This document shows positions 8,553 to 49,549 of a stretch of DNA of 56,134 nt, piece by piece (position 1 is the first letter of the stretch; every line of letters begins with the position of its first letter). The stretch is from a bacterium (GTDB lineage Bacteria > Armatimonadota > Zipacnadia > Zipacnadales > UBA11051): the NCBI GenBank assembly GCA_021372615.1, contig JAJFUB010000091.1, positions 1 through 56,134 on the forward strand, given 5' to 3'. The position numbers were made by a program, and so were the translations under genes. The notes under the pieces are model-generated. The model was not told the DNA's origin, did not search any database, and worked only from the letters and a program-made list of their open reading frames with translations.

Positions 8553-11150
8553 ATGCGGTACCTCGCGCTGCTTGTCGCCCTGGCTGTTGTGACTCCGGCT
8601 CTGGCGCTGGACTTCCGCGACGACTTCTCCTCCCGCCGCCCCGGCTGGGAGCTGCCCAGCGGCGACTGGCAGTGGCAGGACGGCGCTCTCCTCCAGCAAC
8701 GCGCCACCGACATCTACACCTACGCCGTGCGCGAGGAGCAACTGACCGAGGGCGTCATCACCGTCGAGGCGACGGCCACGGACCGCAACTCCAGCGGCGA
8801 CGGCTGCTTCGGCCTCATGTGCAAGTTCCTCGACGACCGCAACTGGGTCGCCGTGCGTTTCGGAGCCTACGGACAGACCGCACTGCTGATGAGGGTAGAC
8901 GGCGAGAAGCGCATCACCGGCCTGCGCCCCTTCGCCTGCGAGCCGGGGCGGAGCTACCGTGGAAGCGTCACGATCACCCGAGGTCTGTTGCTCGTCGAGC
9001 TGGACGGCAAGCCGGTCGGCGTGTCCCGCGACCCCTTCGCCGGGCGCGCCGGCCGCCCGGGCGTCTATGCCCAGTCCCCCGCGCGGTTCCACCTGCTGAC
9101 CGTGAGCGACGCCCCGGCCCTGCCCGACACGACGCCGGCCGCACAGGCCGCCCTCCAGGCCGGGCCGCAGGTGCGACAGGCCAGCGCAGTCTGGAGCGTG
9201 GAGGCGGTGGAGTATGCCGTCGCGCCGCTCTCGCCGACGATCAGTGGGCCGGATCGCTGTAGCCTCGCGCTCTATGTGCGCAATCGCAGCCAGGCGCCAG
9301 CGGCAATTACGGACCTGGCCCTCGACGGCGTACCGGCCGCGACGCTCCGCGAGCAGGGCCGCCTCGCCTGGTGGCGAGCATGGCCGCAGACAGTGCCGCC
9401 GGGCGCCGTGGCGCAGGTGCTCGTGAAGTTCTCCAGCCTGTCTCTCGCGCACGCCGCGCAGGTCGTGCTGGGCGCCCCGGTCGGGCCCATGTGCCTGCGG
9501 CTGGAGGGCGACGGCGGGCCGCTGGAAGTCATCTTCGCGCTGTCCCCGCAACCCCCGCCGCTGTGCGTCAACTTCATCGCCTTCGACGACGCCCTGCAGA
9601 CACTCGACACCTACGTGGCCGCCTCGGGCAAGCTCGTCGGTCGGCCCCTCGAGCGCGTGGCCGTGAACGGGCAGGAGGTGACGGCGCGACTGCAGCCCGA
9701 CGTGAAGACGCTCGGCGGCTTGCGGGCCGATACGCTACCCCTGCATGTGAAGCTGCCGCAGCCCCTGACGCCCGGCGCCCCGACCGTCGTCACCGTCCGC
9801 GCCGGGGGCGTCACGGCCGGACACGCGGTGCGCGCCTTCCCCTCGCGCTTCCCCGTGCAACTGGTCATCCTCGGCCGGCAGCCCGGCCCGGCCGAAGTTG
9901 CCGAGATCGCCGGCCTGTGCTTCTCCGAGGTCGGCTTCTGCGGCGCGAAGTGGGAGAACCTGCCCGAGCTGGCGCGCCACGGCTTGCGCTACTTCCCGTA
10001 TGCTTACCCTGACGCCAAAACGCTGGACGCCTACCTCGGCCGGCCCGCCGCGCGTGCCCCGCTGGTCGGCTGGTGGATTGACGAGATTGACGGCTGGAAG
10101 AAGACGCCTGAGGACGCCCGGCAGATGCTCGTCGCCGCGGACGCGCTGATGGCCGACAAGGGCCTGCCCCTGGCGCCGTACTGCATGAACATCATGGCCC
10201 CGTGGGCCGACATCGGCTATGTCGAGCTGGCCGATGCGCTCTCCCACGAGTACGGCATTGACTTCGGCATCCCCGACTCCGAGGGCTTCCGCCGCGCGCT
10301 GGACTTCCAGACCCCCGGCGACATCTCCCGGCGCGAGCTGCGCACCGCGCGCCGCCCGTTCTGGCCGTACTTCCGCAACCTGGAAGCCGCGGTGCTGCTC
10401 GACCCGCAGACCAAACAGGTCGTCGGCCAGTACCGCCCGTTGGACCCGCGCGAGCACCGCCTGCTGGTGTACTCCTGCCTGGCCGACGGCGCCAAGGGGG
10501 CGCTCAACTGGAACTACGGGGTCAACTACCTCAAACCCCCTTCATGGCTGTCCAAGCAGTACGACGCGATTCGCCTCAACATGACCGCGCAGAAGGACCC
10601 ACAGGCCTTCGGGGTCACGATCCCACCGGAGCTCCTGGAGGGCCTCAGGGCTGCCACGGCCGAGTGCGGCCGCGTCAATGCCGAGCTGCAGTTGCTGGGG
10701 CCGCTGCTGGCGATGGGGGACGTGTCCGACCTGGCGTCCGTCACCCGCTGCACCCCCGAGCACAACCCGCGCGGCGGCCCCGCGGCCCATGCCCGCGCCA
10801 TCGTCTGCGGCCCCGAGACCCTCGTGCTGCTGGTCGTGAACCTCAACATCGACTCGAACTTCAACGCCCGTCAGCCCCAGCCCGTGAAGAGCTATGAGGC
10901 GGCGGACGTGACAGTCGAGGTCGCCCTGCCACAATGGCTCCAGGTATCCGACGTCTTCAGCGTGTCATGTCGGGGGATACAGGCGCAGGAGGCGGAACGA
11001 AGCGGGCGAGTCATCCGCCTGCGCTTCCCGTCGCTGGCGGTGTCGGGGGCGGTGGTCCTCACTGCGGACCGGAGCTTGCGGCCGCGGCTGTCGCGGGAGC
11101 TGCCCGTCTGGCAGGCGAAGCTGCGGGCAGCGGGCTACGACGTGCGCTGA
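8553..11150 (+). CDS. Secreted protein with lectin-like N-terminal domain and TIM-barrel-like core
   Basis: An 865-aa exported protein with a signal peptide at residues 1-18 (LALLVALAVVTPALA). Residues about 19-195 form a concanavalin-like or DUF1080-like beta-sandwich (FRDDFSSRRPGWELP, GCFGLMCKFLDDRNW). A linker and beta domain follow. From about 440 there is a barrel-like region (LVGWWIDEIDGWKKTP, APYCMNIMAP, YFRNLEAAVLL, GALNWNYGVNY), and then a C-terminal beta domain. WWIDEID is the best candidate catalytic strand. The ribosome site GAGGAG overlaps the sulfatase stop, so the two are almost certainly in one operon. No family name can be given securely. Confidence 0.6.
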   Translation: MRYLALLVALAVVTPALALDFRDDFSSRRPGWELPSGDWQWQDGALLQQRATDIYTYAVREEQLTEGVITVEATATDRNSSGDGCFGLMCKFLDDRNWVAVRFGAYGQTALLMRVDGEKRITGLRPFACEPGRSYRGSVTITRGLLLVELDGKPVGVSRDPFAGRAGRPGVYAQSPARFHLLTVSDAPALPDTTPAAQAALQAGPQVRQASAVWSVEAVEYAVAPLSPTISGPDRCSLALYVRNRSQAPAAITDLALDGVPAATLREQGRLAWWRAWPQTVPPGAVAQVLVKFSSLSLAHAAQVVLGAPVGPMCLRLEGDGGPLEVIFALSPQPPPLCVNFIAFDDALQTLDTYVAASGKLVGRPLERVAVNGQEVTARLQPDVKTLGGLRADTLPLHVKLPQPLTPGAPTVVTVRAGGVTAGHAVRAFPSRFPVQLVILGRQPGPAEVAEIAGLCFSEVGFCGAKWENLPELARHGLRYFPYAYPDAKTLDAYLGRPAARAPLVGWWIDEIDGWKKTPEDARQMLVAADALMADKGLPLAPYCMNIMAPWADIGYVELADALSHEYGIDFGIPDSEGFRRALDFQTPGDISRRELRTARRPFWPYFRNLEAAVLLDPQTKQVVGQYRPLDPREHRLLVYSCLADGAKGALNWNYGVNYLKPPSWLSKQYDAIRLNMTAQKDPQAFGVTIPPELLEGLRAATAECGRVNAELQLLGPLLAMGDVSDLASVTRCTPEHNPRGGPAAHARAIVCGPETLVLLVVNLNIDSNFNARQPQPVKSYEAADVTVEVALPQWLQVSDVFSVSCRGIQAQEAERSGRVIRLRFPSLAVSGAVVLTADRSLRPRLSRELPVWQAKLRAAGYDVR

Positions 11151-41958: not shown

Positions 41959-44049
41959 CTACAGACCCGACAGGCTCACCGGCCCCATGATCCGCTGCGG
42001 CGCGGGCTGCGGCAGGCGCGTCACGTTGACCGTCAGGCCCTTGGCGTCCAGCCTGGCGCTCGTGATGACGAAGCGTGCGTCGCCCTGCACCAGGTTGTCC
42101 CTGTAGTAGTCCCGCCAGGCCTGTTCGGCCCCGGCGAAGGCGTGCTCGATGGCCGTGAGCGTTCCGGACGTGAGGGCGAAGCCCTCAGGGTTCGTCCAGC
42201 CCAACGACCAGGGGTTGTCCGTCGCCCCGTCCACATGCGCGTACTGGATCCAGAAGCCGGCGATGTTGCTGCCCGCGCGGATGGCCTCGACGAAGTCACC
42301 CTCAATCCCGGCGGGCTTGCGGTTCATGCCCCACAACAGCGTGACGACCGGGAAGTCAGCGACCCGCGGCCACAGCGCAGCGACGCTGCAGGGGGGCTCG
42401 ACATAGACCATGTCGCCGGCGAAGTCGAAGACGCCCCGGAAGGCAATGGGGCCGCGCTGGCCCGTCCAGCCGCCGACCGGCTTGCCCTGCGCGGCACAGA
42501 GGTCATGGACACGCTTGCAGAACTCCAGCTTGCGCTCCACCCAGAAGGCCTTCCACGCCGGGCCGGCGCTATCGGCCTTCGGGTCGGGCTTGCCCGGCTG
42601 CTTTGCGCACCACGCCGCGAACTTCGCCAGGCACGCCGCGCAGTAGCATGGCTGCCGGTCGAACTCGAAGTTGTCGTCGAGGATGACGCCATCGAGCGTC
42701 GGGTAGCTGTCGAGTAGCGTCTGCACAATCCCCAGGTTGTGCTCCCACACGCCCTGATCGAGCGGGCAGACGGTCTGGCGGAGCTTGGGTTCCGGCACGA
42801 CGCGATCTCTGCCGACATACGGCGGTGCGTCCTTCAGGTGCACCGGGAACCGCTTCCAGTCCAGGTAGAGCCCGCCGATCACCTGGATGCCGCGCGCCTG
42901 GCACGCGGCGAGGGCGTCAGCGAACTTGTCGCCCGGGTAGTCCTTGAGCGAGCCGCGCAGCGCGTCGCCGGGGATGCTGTGGGCGCAGTTGATCCCGCCG
43001 CCCTCATACCGCAACAACGGCTGGACCGTGGCGACATGCAGCCGTGTCAGGAAGTCGGCGGCTTCCGGAGGTGTGAAGCTCGTGAGGAGGCATGCCGAGG
43101 GGTCATGCAGCCAGGTCTCGAGGTGCTGCTTGACGCGCGGCAACTCGCAGGCCACGCGGACCGACGCCGTCTTCCCGTCGGCCAGGCCGGCCACGGGGAT
43201 CGTCACCGCCGTCAGCGACCCCAGCGTCTGCGCCTCCGGTCGCGCCAGCCGCTTCCCGTCCACCGAGACCGACGAGACCCTGGCCCCGCGCGGGAGCGCG
43301 ACCCGGAACGTCTGCGGCAGGGGGTGGACGCCCGGGCCATGGGGCAGGAGCCAGGCCAGGAGGTTATCGAGCACCTGCGCTGCCGTGCCGCTGTCGTCGG
43401 TGACGAAGCGGTAGTTCGATGGGCAGAAGCCCAACACCGCGCAGCGTCCCTGACCCTCCTCGCGCAGCGACCCCAGACAGCGCCCCTCGGCATCGCGGGC
43501 CACCTCGAGGCCGTCCAGCCGGTCGAAGGCGACCATCTCGCGGCCGCCGTCGCCCAGCTTCAGATGGCCCGCAAACACCGGGAAGGCCCAATGCTGCTCC
43601 CCGAGGCCGGCCGTCAGGGGCGAGTCGGGCAGCGTCAGCCCCTTGATGTACACACTCCGCGCGTTCTTGACGCCGCAGGCGGCCAGCAGCTCCGGGCAGG
43701 ACATCGGCCCGCCCCAGTTGCCGTACATCGCGCCACCGGCAGCCACGTACGCCTTCAGTCCCGCGATCTGCTCGGGGGTGAAGTGGCGCTTCAGGCTGGT
43801 GACGACGAGGTCGTAGGCGGCCAGCTTCGCCGCGTCGGCCAGGTCGTCCGGCTGGCCCTGCGTCACCGCGAACCCCCGCCGCAGCAGCGCGGAGTAGATC
43901 GTGAAGTCATAGCCGTTATAGCTGTTCTCAGGCTGCACGACGAGAGCCGTGCCGCCGGCGAAGGAGACCGGCGCAGCGGCGGCGAGGCCAGCGGCCAAGC
44001 AGACAATCCCCGCGAGAACTGCCGTGAGTCGTCGCTGGCCGGTTAGCAT
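41959..44049 (-). CDS. Secreted glycoside-hydrolase-like protein with GATase-like N-terminal domain
   Basis: A 696-aa exported protein with signal peptide AVLAGIVCLAAGLAAAA. Residues about 30-230 resemble a class I amidotransferase-like/ThuA-type flavodoxin fold (YDLVVTSLKRHFTPEQIAGL, GGAMYGNWGG). A small beta domain follows. From about 330 there is a barrel: GIQVIGGLYLDWKRF, LDGVILDDNFEFDRQPCYCAACLAKF, FDFAGDMVYVEPP. VILDDNFEF is the likely catalytic strand, next to a C-x-C-x-x-C motif. GAGGG lies before ATG 44049. No CAZy family is assigned. Confidence 0.65.
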   Translation of the reverse strand: MLTGQRRLTAVLAGIVCLAAGLAAAAPVSFAGGTALVVQPENSYNGYDFTIYSALLRRGFAVTQGQPDDLADAAKLAAYDLVVTSLKRHFTPEQIAGLKAYVAAGGAMYGNWGGPMSCPELLAACGVKNARSVYIKGLTLPDSPLTAGLGEQHWAFPVFAGHLKLGDGGREMVAFDRLDGLEVARDAEGRCLGSLREEGQGRCAVLGFCPSNYRFVTDDSGTAAQVLDNLLAWLLPHGPGVHPLPQTFRVALPRGARVSSVSVDGKRLARPEAQTLGSLTAVTIPVAGLADGKTASVRVACELPRVKQHLETWLHDPSACLLTSFTPPEAADFLTRLHVATVQPLLRYEGGGINCAHSIPGDALRGSLKDYPGDKFADALAACQARGIQVIGGLYLDWKRFPVHLKDAPPYVGRDRVVPEPKLRQTVCPLDQGVWEHNLGIVQTLLDSYPTLDGVILDDNFEFDRQPCYCAACLAKFAAWCAKQPGKPDPKADSAGPAWKAFWVERKLEFCKRVHDLCAAQGKPVGGWTGQRGPIAFRGVFDFAGDMVYVEPPCSVAALWPRVADFPVVTLLWGMNRKPAGIEGDFVEAIRAGSNIAGFWIQYAHVDGATDNPWSLGWTNPEGFALTSGTLTAIEHAFAGAEQAWRDYYRDNLVQGDARFVITSARLDAKGLTVNVTRLPQPAPQRIMGPVSLSGL

Positions 44050-44104
44050 GATGTGCCCTCATGTATGCTCTTCACTCGTCGCTCGCCACGCCGGCGGGAT
44101 CGGC

Positions 44105-44178
44105 GTAGTGGCGCGATTCATCGCGCCGCCATTCGGCCTCGCCGCTCCATCGTTGGGCGCGATGAATTGCACCGCTAC
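44105..44178. repeat. GTAG-headed paired hairpin, supplies a stop codon
   Basis: The arms 44105-44127 and 44156-44178 differ at 3 of 23 positions; each holds a GGCGCGA-TTCA-TCGCGCC type stem, and the ends are GTAG and CTAC. The stop codon of the WbsX-like gene (44175-44177) lies inside the terminal CTAC. A sister copy is inside the same gene at 44653-44701. Confidence 0.7.
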
Positions 44179-46946
44179 TGCAGCCGCATCTCGTCTATCG
44201 CCACCTTCACTCCCTGGGCGCTGCAGGGGTCGAAGCGGAACTGCACGACCTTGCCGCGCCAGCGGGGGTTGGCCTTCAGGTCCATGACCAGGTCGTGCCA
44301 CTGCCCGTCGGCCACAATGTCCGCGCGGCAACTGAGCGCCTCGCTGACGCCCGAGCCGACCGACCAGAAGAGCTGCGCCGTGTCCTTGCCCGCCGGCAGG
44401 CCCTCATACTTGAGGCGAATCACGAGCCGGCTGAACTTGCTCGCGCGCACGCCCTGGAGCGCGGCTGTCAGGGCCGGATCGCGGCTGGCCGTGACGAAGC
44501 TCAGCACACCGTTCTCGGCCTTGAAGTCGCCCACGCCCATCGCCGCGCCCCAGCCCTGCGTGCCGTCGCTGAAGTCCCAGCTCGTGCGCGGCGGCACATC
44601 CATGTCGGTGAAGTCGTACGGCCCGAGACCCACATCCTGCGGCCCGAAGTTCGTAGGGGCGCGATTCATCGCGCCGGGGGCGCCATGAATGGCGCCGCTA
44701 CAGAACACATCGCGCACCGTTTCATACATCCCGAAGCCGAACTCCGCGCAGGGCTCGGCGTAGGAGCCCTCGCCCCACTCGTTCAGCGGGCCGAGCATCA
44801 GCCGCTTGATGCCGTGCTCGTCGGCGAACTTCTTGGCCTCCTCGCAGATCTGGCGGAAGAGGGGCACCGTGCGGCCGGTGATGACCACGCCGCGGTCGCC
44901 ATGCCACGGGCGGCTGTCCCAGCCGGTCGAGATGTTCGGCATGAACGGCAGCGTGTCAATGTCCACGAACTGCTGCCAGTGCTCGCGGCTGGAGCCCGCG
45001 ACCAGGTCGAAGGAGAAGCGCATGGGGTTGGCGGCCTTGCCGCCGTGGCCCATGTAGTGATAGGTCGTCGTCTCCGAGTAGCCCTCGTCCTTGAGCAGCT
45101 TGACGGCGCCGGCATCGGGGCTGCACATGGCCATGAAGTAGATGCCCTTGTAGCCGGCCGCCTTCACCATCTCCTGCGAGATGTCCAGCAGCTTCTTGGC
45201 CCCGGCGCTGCCACCCATGTCCCGCCGCATGTTCCCCGGCGCCCAGATGCATACCACCGGCATGTCGTTGATGCGGTAGTACTCGGGCATGGCGAAATAG
45301 TGGTCAATCCAGTACTGCGTCACGGCCCGCTGGTCCGCCTCCGAGTGCGTGTTGGGGGCGTTGTGGTTGGCCCACATCATGCACCACTTCAGGTACTTGT
45401 GGTACTTGCTCTTCATGTAGGCATTGTGCAGCCAGTGCTCCAGGTGCCGCCCGCCGGCGCTCCAGTACCAGTCCACGCTGAAGTACTTGATGCCGTTCTC
45501 CACGGCCCACTTGATCTGCCAGTCCGCGCACTCGGGGTTGCCTTCGTCATACCAGCCCAGCACCGGCTTGCGGATCGGGGCGACATCGCGCACGCAGCGC
45601 CACTTGTTCGCCCCGTCCCAGCCGGGGAAGTAGTAGGCGCCGATCTCGTAGTCACACTGCACGGGCTTGGGCTCGGGGACATATGAGGCCTTCGGCAGCT
45701 TGAGGTCCGGTAGCAGGCGCACCTCCGCCGCCGCCGGCGCCGCGGGCGCGCCCGGCCCGGTCAGCGTCGCCTGCACGCGCGCTGCGATGGGCCGATCAGC
45801 GCGCACGATCAGCCGCTGCCGCACCGTCTCGGCAGGCGGCACCTCCGGCAGGTTCAGCGCCGCCCCGGTGCCCACCAGCCGCATGCCGGCCGGCAGGTCC
45901 AGCTTCCCGATTTTCAGCCCCTGGGCGGCCGTGCCGCCATGGTTGGTCACCGTCAGCAGCAGCGGGGAATCGCGCCCGGCGCGGTTAAGCGCATCCTCGG
46001 CGAAGAACCCCGTCACCTCGACATCGGGCGGGCCCTCGGGCTCGGCGGCCAGGGCCACCGTCTGGACCGTCCCCGCGGCGCCCCGGGGCAGGCTGATCCC
46101 GAGCAGCAGGCAGTTGCCGACCCAGCCGGACGAACCCGAGACATCCAGGTTGTAAACATGCGGCCGCCCATCCGCGCGCAGCGGGAAGGCCAGCCGCTGC
46201 AGACCCGAGGCCTTGTCCGAGGCCCAGGTGAGCGTGGCCGCCTCGGCGCCGGTCGCGGTCATCTGCACATGCACGACCCACTTGTCATCCACGGGCACCT
46301 GCAGGGGCGGGCTCACGAGCTGGAAGTCGTCGCCCGTGGCCGCGAACTGCAGCCCCCGGGCGGGCGTGACCGTGCCGCCGCCTTGGCCGGTCCAGCCCTG
46401 CAGCCCGCCGGCGAAGTTCCACCGCTCCTCTTTGACCGGCGCCGCCGCCCCCAGGTCCACGATGCGGATCCAGTCAATGGCGAAGGTCTTCTGCCCGCCG
46501 CGCACCGCCGGCAAGTCCAGCCGCAGCAGGATGATCTTCCCCTCGCCCTGCCAGTACGGCTGAATGCGGACCTCGTGCCACTCGTTATCCCCGGTGACGG
46601 CGAAGTGTGTCTCCTTGCCGGGCGAGAAGCCGCCGTACTGCGTCTGGGTGGTGTTGGTCCAGAAGATCTCGCCGTCGCCGCCGTCATCGGTCTTCAGCCG
46701 CACCTCGACCGCCTGCCACGGCGTCGCCGTGATCTCGAACTGCGGGCCGATGAGGAACGGGTCCCAGTCCACGATCGTGCCCTGCAGCAGGCCGTCGGCC
46801 ACCTTGACGTCCTTGATGTGGTTGGCGCCCTTCCAGCCCTCCACGTCGCCGGCGGTGTTGAAGTTCCACTCCTTCACCACCTGCGGGGCGGCGAAGATGC
46901 AGCTTGCGAGCAACGTCCCGAGCAGCACCAGCATCCCGGCTCTCAT
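44175..46946 (-). CDS. Secreted WbsX / GH99-like protein with carbohydrate-binding domains
   Basis: A 923-aa exported protein with signal peptide MLVLLGTLLASCIFA. Residues about 20-400 hold two or three jelly-roll, CBM-type domains (VKEWNFNTAGDVEGWKG, ERWNFAGGLQGWTGQ). The WbsX-type barrel from about 430 includes IGAYYFPGWDGANKW, GIKYFSVDWYWSAGGRH, MPVVCIWAPGNMRRDM and LMLGPLNEWGEGSYAEP. A final jelly-roll ends at 923. Residues about 749-765 are encoded by a GTAG-type hairpin element. ATG 46946 has AGGAGG 6 nt upstream; a TTG at 46961 is rejected. It begins 11 nt after the upstream gene. Confidence 0.78.
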   Translation of the reverse strand: MRAGMLVLLGTLLASCIFAAPQVVKEWNFNTAGDVEGWKGANHIKDVKVADGLLQGTIVDWDPFLIGPQFEITATPWQAVEVRLKTDDGGDGEIFWTNTTQTQYGGFSPGKETHFAVTGDNEWHEVRIQPYWQGEGKIILLRLDLPAVRGGQKTFAIDWIRIVDLGAAAPVKEERWNFAGGLQGWTGQGGGTVTPARGLQFAATGDDFQLVSPPLQVPVDDKWVVHVQMTATGAEAATLTWASDKASGLQRLAFPLRADGRPHVYNLDVSGSSGWVGNCLLLGISLPRGAAGTVQTVALAAEPEGPPDVEVTGFFAEDALNRAGRDSPLLLTVTNHGGTAAQGLKIGKLDLPAGMRLVGTGAALNLPEVPPAETVRQRLIVRADRPIAARVQATLTGPGAPAAPAAAEVRLLPDLKLPKASYVPEPKPVQCDYEIGAYYFPGWDGANKWRCVRDVAPIRKPVLGWYDEGNPECADWQIKWAVENGIKYFSVDWYWSAGGRHLEHWLHNAYMKSKYHKYLKWCMMWANHNAPNTHSEADQRAVTQYWIDHYFAMPEYYRINDMPVVCIWAPGNMRRDMGGSAGAKKLLDISQEMVKAAGYKGIYFMAMCSPDAGAVKLLKDEGYSETTTYHYMGHGGKAANPMRFSFDLVAGSSREHWQQFVDIDTLPFMPNISTGWDSRPWHGDRGVVITGRTVPLFRQICEEAKKFADEHGIKRLMLGPLNEWGEGSYAEPCAEFGFGMYETVRDVFCSGAIHGAPGAMNRAPTNFGPQDVGLGPYDFTDMDVPPRTSWDFSDGTQGWGAAMGVGDFKAENGVLSFVTASRDPALTAALQGVRASKFSRLVIRLKYEGLPAGKDTAQLFWSVGSGVSEALSCRADIVADGQWHDLVMDLKANPRWRGKVVQFRFDPCSAQGVKVAIDEMRLQ
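44653..44701. repeat. GTAG-headed REPIN-like element inside a coding sequence
   Basis: The arms 44653-44675 and 44679-44701 pair with 3 mismatches in 23; the ends are GTAG and CTAC. It encodes roughly SGAIHGAPGAMNRAPT on the minus strand without a stop, between the barrel and the last jelly-roll of the WbsX-like protein. Confidence 0.75.
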
Positions 46947-46957
46947 GACAGTCCTCC

Positions 46958-49549
46958 TCAATCCGGCAAGCGTTCGAAGCGGATGCTGTCCAGGCTGAAG
47001 CTCCCCGGCGTGTCGCCGGAGCCCACGAAGTAGACGCTGTCACACAGGAAGAACCACTCGGTCGCGTACTTGAGGTCCGCGAAGACCTTCGGCTCCTGAC
47101 CGGGTGCTGTGACCGTCAGCGTGTACGCCGGTTTCTCGACGCCGAGCGCGAAGTCACACTGGACGTGCAGCCACTGCCCGAGCGGGAAGGCCATGGCCTC
47201 GCCGGCGGTGGTGGAGAGCTTCCCGTCGTGGTTGAAGCGCGCCAGCGGGCCGGCGCCCTTGCCCTCGTAGCGAACTTCGAGCAGGCAGTCGGCGCCGTCC
47301 ACCCGCACGTCGAAGGTCAACCGCGCCCGGCCCGTCCGGAAGGGTGTCACCGAGCGGTGCATGAACGGCCAGAAGCTGCAGCCGGCCGCGTCGGTGAACT
47401 TCACGCAGCGCTTCCCGGCCGCGGGGTTTTGATCGCTGACGGCGACCGTCGCCGCGTCGCGGTTCCAGGACTGCCAGGGCGTCGCTGGCCTGCTGCCCAC
47501 CGCGAGGTCCTCGAAGTCCTCGGAGAAGCCACTCGTCTTGGGGTCGAGGGGGTGGAAGTCCCCCAGCGTCTCGGGGACGTTCTGGCCGCACAGGCCGAAC
47601 TGCGGGGGCGCGTCATACCCGAGCACAACCGCCGCGTGGTCCTTGAGGTACTCGAGTCGCACCGCCAGGAACTCGCCCTGCCGCGTCACAGTGGCGCCGC
47701 TTAGCGCGGGATAGGCCGCCAGGAGGCGCGCCTCGCCCTGCAGCGGCAACCACACCCGCACGTTGCGCAGCTCGGGGTTCAGGTCGGTGTAGTCGTCGGC
47801 GTTCAGGTCGGTCATGCGCCCGCCGACGCGGCTGCTCATGTCCACGATGTGCAGGACGATCTGCCCCTGCTTCTGGCGCAGCGTACACAGCAACGGGGCC
47901 AACCCGGCATTGGCCACCGCGCCGTACGACGGCCCGCAGCCCAGGGCCTTCAGCGCCCCCAGCAGCGCCTCATCCTGCGGGTAGAGCACCTGGTCAGTCG
48001 CCAGGTACGCCACCTTCCCCTGCCCCAGCGTGTGCACGGTCAGCGCCGGGCGGCCGTCGGCGAACGACAGCAGCGTCTGCGCCGTCCCCGGCGTCACATC
48101 CCACGACCCCAGCATCCAGCAACTGCGGTCGCCGATCCTGATCGCCGCGGGCTTGTTGGCCTGACGCGCCGTGCGCTTGAGGCCCAGGAGGCCGTCATCG
48201 CGCAGGCCGTCGCCGCACACCAGCAGCACGCCGCCCTGGCGGACGAAGGCCTCCAGCCACTGCATCGTCTCGGGGGCGAGGGCGTTCCCCATCGGCAGCA
48301 CCACCACGCGGTACGGCGCCAGGCCCTGCCGGAGCGTCTCCTCATTGACGATGTCGGTGAAGTAGCGCGCCTCCTGCAGACACCGGGCCGCATTGCCAGC
48401 GACGGTCGTGTCCCACTTGCGGCCCTGCGCCAGCCAGGTCGTCTCGCTGTCCAGCACGGCCACCTGCGACAGCGACGTGGAGGGCCCCAGGGCCGGGGCG
48501 CGGTCGCGCACGAACTGCGCCATGCGCCGCGTCATCTCGATGGCCGAGGGCGGGAGGTCGCCACCGACCGTCCAGGCGAACCACTGGCCGCCGTGGGCCA
48601 TCGTCAGCGCGCCTTCCTGGAAGGTGCGCTGCGGCGAATAGACCCGCGTCAGCGCCCGGTAGGGGGCCGCGTAGCTCATGATGTCCCAGGGGATCTTCTG
48701 CTGCGCCCCCCAGCGCATGACCACCGCCGGCAGTTGCCGGATCGAGCCACAGTCGCCCGTAAGGGTGTCCGCCCAGTCCGGCATCGGTTCGGGTTTGTGC
48801 GACCATGACCAGTTGCTCGTGTACATCGCCCGCTTGCTGGCGGTGTGGATCGTCTCGGCGACGAGGCGGCGGTACTCGTGGAAGCGCTGGTAGTGCCAGT
48901 CGCACCACTTGGCCCACAGCGGGGAGGCCTCATCGCGCGGCGCGTCCTGACCCGTGTCAGCTTTCCATTCCCTGAGGCAGTTGTCGCACCAGCAGGGCTT
49001 CGTGAGGATGTAGTCACCGTCGAACCAAAAGCCATCGGGGTCGTACCGGGCGATGATCTCCTTGATCTGCGGGAGGAACTGCTCGTAGAGGTAGCCCCTT
49101 TTATCGCGGTTGGGCCGGTTGCACACGCACGGGTCGCCGTTGATGGTGATCTCGCCCTTGGCTGTGCGCATGGCCCACTCGGGGTGGTCCTTGACCTGCA
49201 GCGGCCGCCGGTCCACCGACATGTAGATGCAGAGCTTCTTGCCCAGCTTCTGCGTGACCGTCTTGAACGTCGCGAGGGTGTCATAGCCGTCGGCGTTGGG
49301 GTTGTTCAGGCCGACCTTGGTGGGGTAGGTCGCGTAGCCGTTGCTCTGGGCCGAGACCTGGACCATGGTCACTGGGACACTGCGGAAGGCCTCGAGCAGC
49401 TCGTCCGGGGGCACCCCCTTGCCCAGCAGCCCCGAGTGGTTGTCGCAGTGGATGTTGACCAGCGAACTGCGGTACCAGTCGTTGCGCGGCTTCTGGGCCA
49501 TCGCGCAGGAGGCTACAGCCAGCAGCAGGGCAAGCAGGGCCAGGCGCAT
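46958..49549 (-). CDS. Secreted GHL6-like glycoside hydrolase with beta-galactosidase trimerisation-like domain
   Basis: An 863-aa exported protein; signal peptide LALLALLLAVASCAMAQ. The N-terminal barrel (residues about 20-390) fits hypothetical glycosyl hydrolase 6: KLCIYMSVDRRPLQVKDHPE, RYDPDGFWFDGDYILTKPCW, then a CWCDNCLREWK Cys motif. About 400-600 resembles the trimerisation domain of GH42-type enzymes (VAVLDSETTWLAQ, VVVLPMGNALAPETMQWLEAFV). A C-terminal jelly-roll begins near 690. ATG 49549 has GGAGGG 9 nt upstream; the frame is open to 49702 but lacks a signal peptide there. It is the first gene of a four-gene minus-strand operon. Confidence 0.75.
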   Translation of the reverse strand: MRLALLALLLAVASCAMAQKPRNDWYRSSLVNIHCDNHSGLLGKGVPPDELLEAFRSVPVTMVQVSAQSNGYATYPTKVGLNNPNADGYDTLATFKTVTQKLGKKLCIYMSVDRRPLQVKDHPEWAMRTAKGEITINGDPCVCNRPNRDKRGYLYEQFLPQIKEIIARYDPDGFWFDGDYILTKPCWCDNCLREWKADTGQDAPRDEASPLWAKWCDWHYQRFHEYRRLVAETIHTASKRAMYTSNWSWSHKPEPMPDWADTLTGDCGSIRQLPAVVMRWGAQQKIPWDIMSYAAPYRALTRVYSPQRTFQEGALTMAHGGQWFAWTVGGDLPPSAIEMTRRMAQFVRDRAPALGPSTSLSQVAVLDSETTWLAQGRKWDTTVAGNAARCLQEARYFTDIVNEETLRQGLAPYRVVVLPMGNALAPETMQWLEAFVRQGGVLLVCGDGLRDDGLLGLKRTARQANKPAAIRIGDRSCWMLGSWDVTPGTAQTLLSFADGRPALTVHTLGQGKVAYLATDQVLYPQDEALLGALKALGCGPSYGAVANAGLAPLLCTLRQKQGQIVLHIVDMSSRVGGRMTDLNADDYTDLNPELRNVRVWLPLQGEARLLAAYPALSGATVTRQGEFLAVRLEYLKDHAAVVLGYDAPPQFGLCGQNVPETLGDFHPLDPKTSGFSEDFEDLAVGSRPATPWQSWNRDAATVAVSDQNPAAGKRCVKFTDAAGCSFWPFMHRSVTPFRTGRARLTFDVRVDGADCLLEVRYEGKGAGPLARFNHDGKLSTTAGEAMAFPLGQWLHVQCDFALGVEKPAYTLTVTAPGQEPKVFADLKYATEWFFLCDSVYFVGSGDTPGSFSLDSIRFERLPD

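Follow-up and report, generated by a model that had tools for sequence, protein, structure and literature searches.

A WbsX-like gene in an Armatimonadota (Candidatus Zipacnadia-like) genome carries, in frame, a REPIN-like, non-autonomous GTAG REP doublet from a multi-copy family. Comparison with orthologues indicates that the doublet replaced a stretch of the gene, rather than being added to it. Most sampled copies of the family are seated exactly on the stop codons of upstream genes.

The doublet and its family

The element at positions 44653-44701 (Table 1) reads GTAGGGGCGCGATTCATCGCGCC-GGG-GGCGCCATGAATGGCGCCGCTAC, that is, 49 bp made of two 23-bp arms and a GGG spacer. The arms are inverted and head-out, with GTAG heads, and their consensus is GTAGNGGCGCGATTCATCGCGCC. 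The window, by which we mean the whole stretch of 56,134 nucleotides analysed, contains four arm matches with at most three mismatches, against 0.01 expected from shuffled sequences. As single-stranded DNA, the 49-mer is predicted to form one long hairpin (-21.5 kcal/mol, z -5.8), and a single arm a short one (-9.3 kcal/mol). The doublet at 44105-44178 folds as a single long hairpin as well. No Rfam match was observed within 43900-44900.

Table 1. Positions and properties of the doublets, their arms, the host gene and the intragenic copies with lost host sequence
Feature	Position	Strand	Properties
Host gene	44175..46961	-	928 codons; secreted protein with a WbsX/GH99-like catalytic domain and a C-terminal beta-rich domain
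GTAG REP doublet, REPIN-like	44653..44701	-	in frame within the WbsX-like gene; appears to replace about 9 ancestral codons
Left arm	44653..44675	+	GTAGGGGCGCGATTCATCGCGCC; exact consensus
Right arm	44679..44701	-	GTAGCGGCGCCATTCATGGCGCC; two compensating stem changes relative to the consensus
Second GTAG REP doublet	44105..44178	-	28-nt private spacer; seated at the stop of the WbsX-like gene above
GTAG head, TAG being the stop of the WbsX-like gene	44175..44178	-	C-terminus aligns with the G001 orthologue, whose stop is TGA
Intragenic copy	L102		net +30 against a 50-nt element; one orthologue
Intragenic copy	L101		net +54 against a 67-nt element; four homologues
Intragenic copy	L081		net at most +21 against a 53-nt element
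Intragenic arm	L082:13431		net 0 against 23 nt; one orthologue (G001)

The complete genome assembly (6.41 Mb, 171 contigs) was searched for the arm with up to three mismatches, the reversed pattern serving as control. There were 129 arms on dozens of contigs, and the control gave none. The sequence-only reading had noticed a GTAG/CTAC-ended hairpin element and proposed this search; the paired 23-bp arms and their genome-wide copies confirm a genuine, repeated REPIN-like GTAG REP doublet. The four positions of the GTAG tag are each more than 95% conserved (124 arms), and the stem pair 11-18 covaries (GC 101, CG 10, AT 7). Every one of the 38 two-arm elements has its arms head-out, and spacer length ranges from 3 to 139 nt. 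The spacers are private to their loci: the 22 longer ones are mutually unrelated, though the arms are nearly identical. Arms of one doublet resemble each other no more closely than do random pairs or arms of different doublets, and copying between them was thus rejected. No T-run that would indicate an intrinsic terminator was seen by eye after the arms. In two doublets (L118, 2244-2353, and L094, 14643-14750) the spacer holds one more arm copy, which has no head, as well as repeats of spacer sequence; this suggests internal duplication.

The arm is absent from 39 of 46 genomes of the class, and its distribution is patchy. With at most one mismatch, the exact 23-mer was found 279 times in G030, seven times in its same-genus sister G029, and 38 times in G042. 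A recent burst in G030 is likely. The G030 arms (L330 and the odd-numbered L337-L363) lie for the most part in direct pairs (GTAGGGG...GTAGGGG), not inverted ones.

Positions relative to genes were determined in 1.88 Mb of tiles lying mostly around arm hits, so that element density is biased while gene-relative position should not be. Genes were called with a self-trained codon model and 77 elements were classified. The expectation that REP elements normally stay outside genes holds for the majority, as 66 of the 77 are extragenic while 88% of the sequence is coding; yet 11 (14%) lie wholly within open genes.

Host sequence at intragenic sites

The Pfam WbsX domain covers residues 468-745 of the host protein (E 1.6e-22), with a weaker GH99 match, and the nearest named relatives come from Candidatus Zipacnadia and Armatimonadetes genomes. 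The doublet is indeed read through between two domains, as had been proposed: the frame is open from the WbsX domain into the C-terminal domain, and the element encodes the peptide (C)SGAIHGAPGAMNRAP(T) immediately past the catalytic domain. The predicted structure (mean pLDDT 70) has a helix at 309-318 followed by a low-confidence structureless stretch at 322-354 (model numbering), which fits a tolerant interdomain linker.

All five orthologues considered (G001, G005, G006 and two Zipacnadia records) share a conserved linker FC-x-x-P-x-GGWP, followed by a short stretch and DVGLGPYD. Protein identity is 66% for G001 and 57% for G005 and G006; these three orthologues come from two other genera of the same family. 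The element-bearing gene reads VFC-SGAIHGAPGAMNRAP-TNFGPQDVGLGPYD, and the GGWP motif is gone. Both GTAG/CTAC ends of the doublet are intact, and exactly the adjacent host codons are lost. The sequence-only reading had predicted a lineage-specific insertion of 17 residues exactly bounded by the element. The residues are lineage-specific, as none of the five orthologues has them. However, the orthologues hold nine other residues at this place, and the change in length is net +7 residues (21 bp), not 17. Thus the alignment, in which the nearest comparator is 66% identical in protein, points to replacement of the ancestral linker.

Base-level empty sites were sought in G004 and G005, which are about 92% identical to each other, and none was found; the elements there belong to a different doublet family of 66-131 bp. 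G006 does not have the loci sought for this comparison. The G004 and G005 doublets (L197-L266; 66, 97 and 131 bp) are related to the present ones but distinct, with conserved spacers and a position within larger repeats, and some hold a further nested hairpin.

Four other intragenic copies have also lost host sequence, the net gain being smaller than the element (Table 1). At L082:13431 the terminal CACTAC of the arm aligns with CAC TAC (His-Tyr) codons in the orthologue. A different situation is seen at L082:8871 (8871-8893), where 33 nt (11 residues) have been gained around a single 23-nt arm; this region may contain a decayed partner arm. The intragenic sites in L067 and L096 lie in variable loops. 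One more in-frame copy (L099, 1702-1751) is in a gene that by eye resembles the N-terminal region of alpha-L-rhamnosidase.

One possibility is that the doublet was inserted cleanly and that nearby linker codons were then deleted by ordinary events until length and function were recovered, replacement being secondary. Interdomain linkers do vary in length among homologues, and the sites in L067 and L096 are, as noted, in variable loops. However, deletions of this kind would have had to spare both ends of the element and remove exactly the codons flanking them, including a motif retained by every orthologue, and to leave a similar net shortfall at several unrelated sites. We consider this scenario possible, but not probable.

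It is highly improbable that the SGAIHGAPGAMNRAP linker is a domesticated coding element selected for protein function: an open frame in an intact gene would suit this view, but orthologues do without the peptide, and it recurs unchanged or nearly so (GAMNRA, GATNGA) in most of the other, unrelated intragenic hosts, because that frame has no stops.

Seating on stop codons

In 49 of the 77 elements the TAG of the GTAG head is the exact stop codon of the upstream gene, and in two others the head placed there is GTAA. Another 15 are situated elsewhere, six of them 1-5 nt from a stop. The doublet at 44105-44178, described as intergenic in the sequence-only reading, is real but only partly intergenic, since its GTAG (44178-44175, minus strand) ends the WbsX-like gene itself.

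In the tiles, 403 free GTAG sites lie at stops and 915 in intergenic regions. If the elements merely settled on GTAGs already present, 31% of them should be at stops; among the 66 non-genic elements the fraction seated on stops is 74% (p 4e-13). Within this genome seating is specific to this family, with 47 of 106 heads on stops against 3 of 92 for three further families of GTAG hairpins from these tiles (p 2e-12). TAG is used more than any other stop codon (52% in tiles L066-L166 and the window, the latter having 69% G+C) and is preceded by G in 66% of cases, so that about one third of genes end in GTAG.

Compared with their G001 homologues, 20 seated genes show C-terminal length differences that cluster about zero and are indistinguishable from those of 25 control genes (p 0.16); general truncation or extension of proteins by seated copies is thus unsupported, although a shortening by 6-10 residues is seen in five of the seated proteins. 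The seated elements therefore coincide mostly with native stops. Of 21 seated cases, only four have GTAG at the stop of the G001 orthologue, a share close to the 14% of sampled G001 genes that end in this way. A pre-existing GTAG as the target at seated stops is therefore no more than plausible.

The preference might have been intrinsic to the arm sequence. This was rejected, as G030 and G042, which belong to the same order and have the identical arm, seldom show it: one of 17 sampled elements in G030 and three of 16 in G042 are seated, four of 33 together. Seating is therefore a trait of this lineage rather than of the arm.

Putative positive selection could also have set the hairpins at stops, for protection of mRNA 3'-ends or coupling to termination, the intragenic copy being a by-product of the family. 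A role as RNA elements has been proposed for REP hairpins that follow genes (PMC3733652), and the restriction of seating to one family in this genome, together with its rarity for the same arm in G030 and G042, would agree with this. On the other hand, a hairpin a few bases downstream should serve equally well, yet the exactly seated elements far outnumber those within 1-5 nt (49 against six). We find this explanation rather unlikely.

A distinctly unlikely alternative dispenses with insertion altogether: a short arm tract would be copied over host DNA beside an existing GTAG/CTAC by template switching or gene conversion. The net-zero arm at L082:13431, with its aligned CACTAC end, is what such overwriting would produce, and locus-private spacers between near-identical arms and the coincidence of docked heads with native stops are also in agreement. 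However, this is just one clean net-zero site, seen against a single orthologue, and doublets at other sites add length. Nor are the arms within a doublet more alike than those of different doublets.

Candidate mechanism and mobiliser

Taken together, a REPIN-like GTAG doublet that is mobilised by a Y1 transposase, replaces target DNA and becomes seated through GTAG recombination and purifying selection is the account that we regard as probable. The doublet would spread in single-stranded form, with a Y1 (RAYT/TnpA-REP) transposase acting on it in trans, GTAGCGGCGCGATTCATCGCGCC being a candidate single-stranded substrate of the RAYT-like proteins, and its arrival would remove a short stretch of target DNA. 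Intragenic survivors would be those with a frame open through both arms, a net length that is a multiple of three, and a tolerant linker; the encoded residues would need no function. Seating on stops would result from recombination at pre-existing GTAG tetranucleotides combined with purifying selection, which seems the best explanation because GTAG is so abundant at gene ends. A more specific and rather speculative version, which we think unlikely as a whole, is that this Armatimonadota REP family spreads by replacing short host segments beside existing GTAG/CTAC, is thereby steered to GTAG stops, where the protein is unaltered, and occasionally rewrites linker codons.

The genome contains seven Y1 transposase genes. 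Five of the proteins are RAYT-like (L033, L034, L035 and L037 are loci of such proteins), matching the REP-associated tyrosine transposase model NF047646 at E 1e-18 or better, and one of these is above the curated cut-off. The earlier assignment to RAYT-type doublets stands insofar as RAYT-like genes are present; the cognate gene was not found, none of the seven being flanked by these arms in the fragmented assembly (171 contigs), where absence is not final. Since no Y1 gene adjoins these arms, we infer mobilisation by a RAYT from the features of the class. The IS200-like Y1 transposase gene of L031 (1174-1934) is the only one with GTAG hairpins on both sides. There are several of these hairpins, which read GTAGCCGTGGGC-GGCA-GCCCACGG and represent a GTAG family other than that of the 23-bp arm.

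The element class is already known. Its presence within a gene, which had seemed an unusual combination, has a precedent in the GTAG REPs and dimers inside ORFs reported in 2013 by Di Nocera et al. (PMC3733652) and recurs in the 11 intragenic elements found here. In the REP/REPIN papers searched we found no defined insertion target site and no description of host-codon loss at REP sites or of majority stop seating at native C-termini. Dozens of stop-seated copies and several in-gene copies with orthologues make the target choice of REPs testable. Moreover, mobile hairpins can be the source of linkers and C-termini in the proteins predicted from such genomes.

The resemblance to Rickettsia palindromic elements (RPE-1, RPE-4, RPE-6), noted in the sequence-only reading, lies in the occurrence of palindromic repeats in frame within genes. 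RPE-4 and RPE-6 were assigned to the sister CGTC class (PMC3733652) and RPE-1 is of a longer type, whereas the present arms carry GTAG. The TnpA-REP/RAYT Y1 transposases of the IS200/IS605 type (PMC2817692, PMC8266576) recognise GTAG with a hairpin in single-stranded DNA, and RAYT-like genes are present here. However, the described cleavage by TnpA-REP is at CT beside the REP (PMC8266576), not at GTAG, and the pairing of arm and transposase in our case is putative.

The doublets resemble REPINs (Bertels and Rainey 2011, PMC3116915) in having two inverted head-out REPs, a hairpin in single-stranded DNA and a diverse spacer; REPINs with highly diverse spacers have been described (PMC3116915, PMC8049555). 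In both, single arms may be decayed remnants. They differ in that no flanking RAYT was found here, spacers range over 3-139 nt, and 14% of the elements are intragenic, whereas REPINs are described as extragenic. The GTAG REPs of Di Nocera et al. (PMC3733652) are likewise GTAG palindromes that form dimers and occur within ORFs, where dimers or groups encode 20-30 amino acids, and in many cases the TAG that stops a gene comes from their termini. What distinguishes the present family from them is that orthologues show a loss of host codons at intragenic sites, and that stop seating concerns the majority of elements and is precise to the native C-terminus.
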